A stretch of DNA of 35,485 nt from Bacillota bacterium (GTDB lineage Bacteria > Bacillota > Limnochordia > DTU080 > JAAYLA01). Below are positions 9,708 through 23,368 of this stretch, one piece after another; the stretch's first letter is position 1; every line of letters starts with the position of its first letter. The translations under genes and the position numbers were made by a program. Under the pieces are notes generated by a model, which did no database searches, was not told the origin of the DNA, and worked only from the letters and a program-made list of their open reading frames with translations. Where the stretch lies: assembly GCA_012522135.1 (NCBI GenBank), contig JAAYLA010000192.1, positions 1 to 35,485 of the forward strand, given 5' to 3'.

Positions 9708-9737
9708 TTGGCAGGTCCGATGAGTAAAGATTATACA
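9708..9737 (+). promoter_or_regulatory. Candidate promoter TTGGCA-18-TATACA upstream of the CBM9-like gene
   Basis: TTGGCA at 9708-9713 with TATACA after an 18-nt spacer. Confidence 0.4.
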
Positions 9738-9824
9738 CACAGGTGCCAGTCCGGGGGTCATTTCTTCGCACCGGTCTTTTGAGCGCGTGGGCCGGTACCC
9801 GCGAATGCCCCGTCGGTTCTGGCA

Positions 9825-14010: not shown

Positions 14011-14086
14011 GAATTATACACACTCCTGCACCTTGCTGTGGTGTCAGATACTGAAGAGAGCCCCCGGACAGCGAGCTCGTCTCCCC

Positions 14087-23135: not shown

Positions 23136-23161
23136 ACAGGTCAATCCTCTCTCACTCTAGT

Positions 23162-23301
23162 TGTGTACAGCCCTGCTTATGCACATCTCCACATACACAC
23201 ATGTTCACACACCGGGCGGGCGATCCTGCTCCCGCTTCGCATCGGGTTTTCCCGGGCGGCAGGAGAGCAGGCACTGGAGACGAACTGATAGGCTGTACAC
23301 A
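23162..23301. repeat. Inverted 11-mer TGTGTACAGCC (23162-23172) / GGCTGTACACA (23291-23301) in the coaBC-HTH intergenic region
   Basis: Exact reverse complements about 130 bp apart. Confidence 0.6.
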
Positions 23302-23368
23302 CTTTGTCGTCAGTTTGTCGTCATGTTGTCCACAAGTTGTACACAACCTGTGGATAACTTGTTCCCGA
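23292..23368. repeat. Run of seven imperfect 11-bp units with invariant TGT, DnaA-box-like
   Basis: GCTGTACACAC|TTTGTCGTCAG|TTTGTCGTCAT|GTTGTCCACAA|GTTGTACACAA|CCTGTGGATAA|CTTGTTCCCGA; includes TGTGGATAA (reverse complement of TTATCCACA) at 23349-23357. Confidence 0.65.

Follow-up and report, generated by a model that had tools for sequence, protein, structure and literature searches.

A phased array of DnaA boxes at the predicted transcription start of a small HTH regulator gene in Bacillota: a putative replication-state switch

Seven 11-bp units lie directly upstream of the gene for a small helix-turn-helix (HTH) protein in a Bacillota DNA stretch of 35,485 nucleotides, which was analysed at its full length and is referred to here as the window. 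With a probability of roughly 0.7, DnaA forms an oligomer on these units, which would lie where transcription of the regulator gene begins and would thereby place the gene under a replication-state switch. A DnaA-regulated promoter or titration site had been among the candidates of the original prediction, and this candidate is now strongly supported: the array is conserved, its box profile points to DnaA, and dnaA too has this box pair next to it. Going beyond that prediction, the array is immediately preceded by a SigH-type promoter, and the arrangement is conserved over a broad range of lineages. Promoters under DnaA control are known as such. As far as the literature searched shows, no description exists of the strict 11-bp array, of its pairing with SigH, of this family of regulators or of conservation over such a range. 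This search, which left most subscription journals uncovered, returned no work in which DnaA boxes are linked to the genes or lineages concerned.

All seven of the 11-mers originally quoted are present letter for letter at 23292–23368 (Table 1), with TGT in 7/7 units and CA in 5/7, in agreement with the description of TGT as invariant and C-A as mostly kept. The perfect minus-strand DnaA box claimed within them was confirmed. Where a single further box at one mismatch had been noted, two are present: TTGTCCACA and TTGTACACA are both perfect matches to TTRTNCACA and 1 mismatch from TTATNCACA. With G allowed at position 3, several 9-mers fit TTATNCACA, above chance. The HTH start codon follows 15 bp beyond the end of the array. 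A coding repeat was ruled out, since 11 is not divisible by 3 and the start codon comes only after the array; the 11-bp phase is compatible with stacked sites on one DNA face, as had been suggested. Unit 7 is probably without function and may be a chance extension of the array, because the chain in relatives usually stops at TGTGGATAA.

Table 1. Positions of promoter elements, array units, the HTH gene and a neighbouring DnaA box in the window.
Feature	Position	Strand	Remarks
Further perfect DnaA box TTATGCACA	23177..23185	+	by the divergent coaBC start
SigH-type -35 element GCAGGAGAG	23259..23267	+	consensus RnAGGAwWW; relatives have GCAGGAATT or similar, likewise followed by an 11-bp spacer
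SigH-type -10 element GACGAAC	23279..23285	+	consensus RnnGAAT; 11-bp spacer; ends 6 bp before the array
Array unit 1 GCTGTACACAC	23292..23302	+	contains CTGTACACA, 1 mismatch to TTRTNCACA
Array unit 2 TTTGTCGTCAG	23303..23313	+	weak unit
Array unit 3 TTTGTCGTCAT	23314..23324	+	weak unit
Array unit 4 GTTGTCCACAA	23325..23335	+	forward DnaA box TTGTCCACA at 23326-23334
Array unit 5 GTTGTACACAA	23336..23346	+	forward DnaA box TTGTACACA at 23337-23345
Array unit 6 (23347-23357), perfect reverse DnaA box TTATCCACA	23349..23357	-	plus-strand reading TGTGGATAA
Array unit 7 CTTGTTCCCGA	23358..23368	+	in phase, TGT kept alone, not box-like
HTH gene, 87 aa	23384..23647	+	GerE/sigma-region-4-type HTH core between two short strands, acidic tail

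The pattern TTGTNNNCA-N2-TTGTNNNCA is matched four times in the window, each time within the array, and not once in 100 shuffles, the motif density of the real sequence being far higher. In a scan of the whole 3.22-Mb assembly this tandem pattern was again restricted to the array (genome-wide counts given here are from pattern searches). The next-longest 11-phased TGT chain elsewhere in the window has 2 units. Perfect TTRTNCACA boxes number six in the window, three of them in the array and one 150 bp upstream. A second DnaA-like group is seen by the divergent coaBC start at 23160–23210, with one-mismatch sites on both sides of TTATGCACA, and two lone perfect boxes TTATACACA are found at 9731–9739 and 14014–14022. 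The window contains no structured RNA of an Rfam family and no tRNA.

The 11-bp spacing is conserved in relatives: the phase is kept upstream of HTH orthologues in the same class and in Sulfobacillus, Moorella, Carboxydothermus and Desulfotomaculum relatives. The main statistics were obtained from 75 upstream regions with no common 30-mer, with dinucleotide shuffles as control. TGT pairs at distances of 11, 22 and 33 bp occur 205, 152 and 91 times, respectively, versus about 4–6 in shuffled sequence, and neighbouring distances stay at background level. Unbroken chains of at least 3 units are present in 60 of the 75 regions (0.13% of shuffles), and there are 166 perfect TTRTNCACA boxes against 1.8 after shuffling.

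A per-unit mismatch profile was derived from 99 upstream regions aligned on the last unit, a set in which some loci are represented twice. The last unit is the reverse box TGTGGATAA and, with a mean of 0.17 mismatches, the most conserved one. It is preceded by two forward boxes TTGTNCACA (0.9–1.2 mismatches), which have a free base at box position 5, the N position of the DnaA consensus TTATNCACA, and these in turn by weak 5' units of the type TTTGTAnTAA (3–4 mismatches). This order, weak 5' units followed by two forward TTGTNCACA and one reverse TGTGGATAA, is constant. One spacing measures 12 bp in family f8, where the middle box is TTATCCACA; ten genomes of this family (G010, G014, G021, G024, G027, G030, G033, G036, G039 and G042) also contain TTATCCACA-N2-TTATCCACA once each, away from the HTH gene. 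The TTTGTCG units had also been likened to Spo0A boxes. This was not borne out, since the weak units vary and are replaced by TTTGTAGTTA, TTTGTACTAA or TTTGTCCTCA in relatives, with loss of the TGTCGAA core.

The pair TTGTNCACA-N3-TGTGGAYAA, with 1 mismatch allowed, is found at 0–3 places per genome. Out of 26 loci fetched with this pair, 19 have the HTH gene and 4 dnaA, and all non-HTH matches with an identifiable neighbour lie beside dnaA. In the window's own genome the sole other place with the stricter pair is ~546 bp before dnaA, which resides on a different contig (C163) with boxes of its own upstream. The one-mismatch pair is also present upstream of dnaA in G008 and G037, neither of which has an HTH orthologue. 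The same box type hence occurs in the dnaA/oriC region of the species itself and of relatives. The array is therefore made up of the type of site used beside dnaA, and from this shared pair we infer DnaA as the binder.

The HTH protein matches Sigma70_r4_2/GerE only, the Sda domain (PF08970) being absent, and no named NCBIfam family scored above its cut-off for the 87-aa protein. A PDB sequence search matched the HTH region alone. In the AlphaFold model, a three-helix HTH flanked by two strands is predicted with confidence, and the acidic tail behind them is of low confidence. Foldseek recovered the GerE/NarL/sigma-4 HTH core in alignments of ~45 residues, none of which reached E ≤ 0.001. Accordingly, Pfam, NCBIfam, PDB sequence and fold searches gave no named function beyond the HTH core. 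This core is shared by sequence and fold with GerE/NarL and sigma region 4 proteins; unlike them, the present protein is a stand-alone polypeptide of 87 aa that has one strand N-terminal and one C-terminal to the core, besides an acidic tail. Orthologues were detected in 24 of 60 same-class relatives (two more gave weak HTH matches at E ~5e-4), those aligned showing 57–76% identity to the window protein. A search of genome contigs returned 313 stretches encoding relatives of the protein, of which 80 were kept; these include Sulfobacillus, Carboxydothermus, Moorella, Desulfofundulus, Desulfoscipio, Thermincola and Fermentithermobacillus.

The usual gene order in the 80 loci is spoVT-mazG-S4-type protein-yabP-yabQ-HTH-divIC-S1 protein-spoIIE-like gene. 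SpoVT, MazG, YabP, YabQ and S1 were confirmed by Pfam, DivIC was below its cut-off, and the S4-type and spoIIE-like labels were assigned by eye. In most lineages the HTH gene is thus placed between the sporulation gene yabQ and the division gene divIC. In the taxonomic order to which the window belongs it adjoins coaBC instead, and the array has moved along with the gene, which argues for control of the HTH gene rather than for a free-standing DnaA sink.

The full SigH consensus, reportedly set out by Britton in 2002, is RnAGGAwWW-N11-12-RnnGAAT. With at most 1 mismatch, RnAGGAwWW-N11/12-RnnGAAT was found in 28 of 58 non-Sulfobacillus regions and in 0.5% of shuffles, so that the non-Sulfobacillus family as a group carries a SigH-type promoter. 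The window copy, GCAGGAGAG-N11-GACGAAC, deviates from the consensus at 3 positions, counted over the two elements, and lacks significance by itself; the SigH assignment in the window therefore rests on the family. The signature of SigH consists of an AGGA and a GAAT element (PMC12456013). SigH itself was found in 25/25 genomes searched, the best match in G076 being partial and below the curated cut-off. A scan for sigma-70 promoters returned none in the window, and TATAAT takes the place of the SigH elements in 15/15 Sulfobacillus-type regions. In four loci of the latter type (L097, L098, L112 and L123) a further DnaA-like box, CTGTGGATA, is seen between the -35 element and TATAAT.

In relatives, the -10 element usually ends 0–30 bp from the first array unit, and with both promoter types the array is predicted to lie at and just after the transcription start. 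Its distance to the start codon ranges from 5 to ~130 bp, and the variable leader may have some other role. The largest distance, ~480 bp, is found in G001 (L008 1501-2500), where the array and a SigH-like motif stay by coaBC. The HTH gene of G001 adjoins a TATAAT-like motif of its own, which could permit a bypass of the array.

According to the mechanism that we propose, the HTH gene would be transcribed by SigH, the stationary-phase and early-sporulation sigma factor, or from the TATAAT-type promoter in Sulfobacillus. Nucleation of DnaA would take place on TTATCCACA, the strong box in reverse orientation, together with the pair of TTGTNCACA boxes. From there DnaA would extend in the 5' direction over the weaker units, occupying one at each turn of the helix, and the resulting filament would cover the transcribed region next to the promoter. 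The position of the array at or after the predicted start suggests repression by steric blocking, so that the DnaA switch on this putative stationary-phase regulator gene is probably repressive; it is the geometry alone that favours repression over activation. HTH transcription would then be low with plentiful active DnaA and rise when active DnaA falls. The regulator, with a supposed role in the timing of sporulation or division, would thereby be tied to replication status, as Sda is to DnaA in Bacillus subtilis. Judged by its sequence, this arrangement, present in many bacteria of the spore-forming type, suggests that chromosome replication directly controls the HTH regulator.

Other explanations have to be weighed against this. 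The array might mainly be a DnaA sink or reset element, comparable to the DnaA-box clusters of B. subtilis or to datA of E. coli, which tunes initiation timing and affects the HTH gene only secondarily. A strong DnaA-box cluster that occurs about once per genome outside oriC, 69.5 kb from dnaA in G019, would suit such an element, and the B. subtilis clusters do limit initiation (PMC5295017). We nevertheless regard this as unlikely, in that the array tracks the HTH gene through lineages and contexts, with coaBC in the window's own order and yabQ/divIC elsewhere, and has a constant location, with a conserved promoter on one side and the gene on the other, whereas a sink could sit anywhere. An operator for the HTH protein itself, whose likeness to DnaA boxes would be incidental or due to competition with DnaA, appears improbable, and the autoregulation put forward in the original prediction has lost ground. 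The units obey DnaA-box degeneracy with TTATCCACA as the most conserved, forward and reverse copies are held apart by position, and the same pair occurs upstream of dnaA even where the HTH orthologue is lacking. On the other side, the array accompanies the HTH gene almost without exception, the protein has a DNA-binding HTH, and TTGTNNACAA is nearly palindromic and would suit an HTH dimer.

Very little speaks for the iteron-like initiation site or replication origin that had likewise been considered. The build does resemble oriC, with one strong box accompanied by weaker ones that recur at every helical turn. However, dnaA is located on a different contig and has a box cluster of its own upstream, and in the complete single-contig genome G019 the cumulative GC skew drops until dnaA and climbs after it, the minimum being at dnaA and not at the array. 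Moreover, no AT-rich unwinding region was seen by eye near the array; oriC is thus assigned to dnaA, and the origin reading was rejected. An iteron array, bound by a plasmid Rep protein at a plasmid origin, appears unlikely as well, since chromosomal-type genes surround the array and its units match DnaA boxes. It is equally hard to credit that the repeats act in the leader RNA as sites for an RNA-binding regulator. Their location 3' of the predicted promoter, often just before the ribosome-binding site, would allow for this, but the same boxes stand beside dnaA, the spacing equals one helical turn of DNA, and in some relatives the start codon is up to ~480 bp away. Hence, a DnaA oligomerisation site controlling the HTH gene is preferred.

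In B. subtilis, DnaA activates sda, and Sda blocks the activation of Spo0A (PMC4447404, PMC5295017). Sda was not detected above cut-off in any of 98 genomes, comprising 61 of the class set and 37 other carriers of the HTH gene. Spo0A is present in 60/61 class-set genomes. Carriers and non-carriers alike possess Spo0A and lack Sda, so that this distribution provides no independent support for a sporulation role, and it was uninformative as an explanation for the presence of the HTH gene. The absence of Sda fits an HTH regulator that substitutes for Sda, without proving it. We know of no established account of how spore formers without Sda match sporulation to replication. A wider reading, which we advance tentatively and at somewhat less than even odds, is that several deep Bacillota lineages without Sda use a dedicated SigH-driven HTH regulator, governed by a phased DnaA filament switch; encoded between yabQ and divIC, this regulator would inform sporulation and septation of the state of replication. 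The locus offers a concrete candidate for replication–sporulation coupling without Sda, present about once per genome, with site, promoter and product.

The sda promoter of B. subtilis likewise combines a DnaA-box cluster with a small regulatory gene that links replication to early sporulation. The present case differs in its product, an HTH protein and not the Sda kinase inhibitor, in the strict 11-bp phasing of its boxes, which form an array where transcription from a SigH-type promoter would start, and in the repression expected, as DnaA activates sda. DnaA also represses several B. subtilis operons (PMC4447404). The DnaA-repressed promoters (ywlC, vpr, yyzF-yydD, trmE-noc and ywcI-sacT) and the DnaA-box clusters of this species similarly have DnaA boxes outside oriC, placed at promoters, but the HTH family of the present gene is not represented among the repressed genes, and the literature consulted describes for them no run of boxes in strict 11-bp steps that several classes share. 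In the oriC arrays of E. coli, 2 bp separate the 9-mers, which gives 11-bp steps. The account of Rozgaja 2011 given in PMC4285127 has a strong anchor box and weaker, same-oriented low-affinity sites guiding ordered growth of the DnaA oligomer; in contrast to these, the array described here precedes a gene and is not at an origin. Because it occurs naturally outside an origin, keeps strictly to one helical turn between sites and has a wide phylogenetic range, this putative DnaA array would lend itself to studies of how DnaA oligomers grow when no origin is being unwound. A 4-unit 11-bp TGT chain was also seen just after dnaA in G019 (L087 1641-1690, contig C1), and a shorter phased array may thus be present at oriC too.
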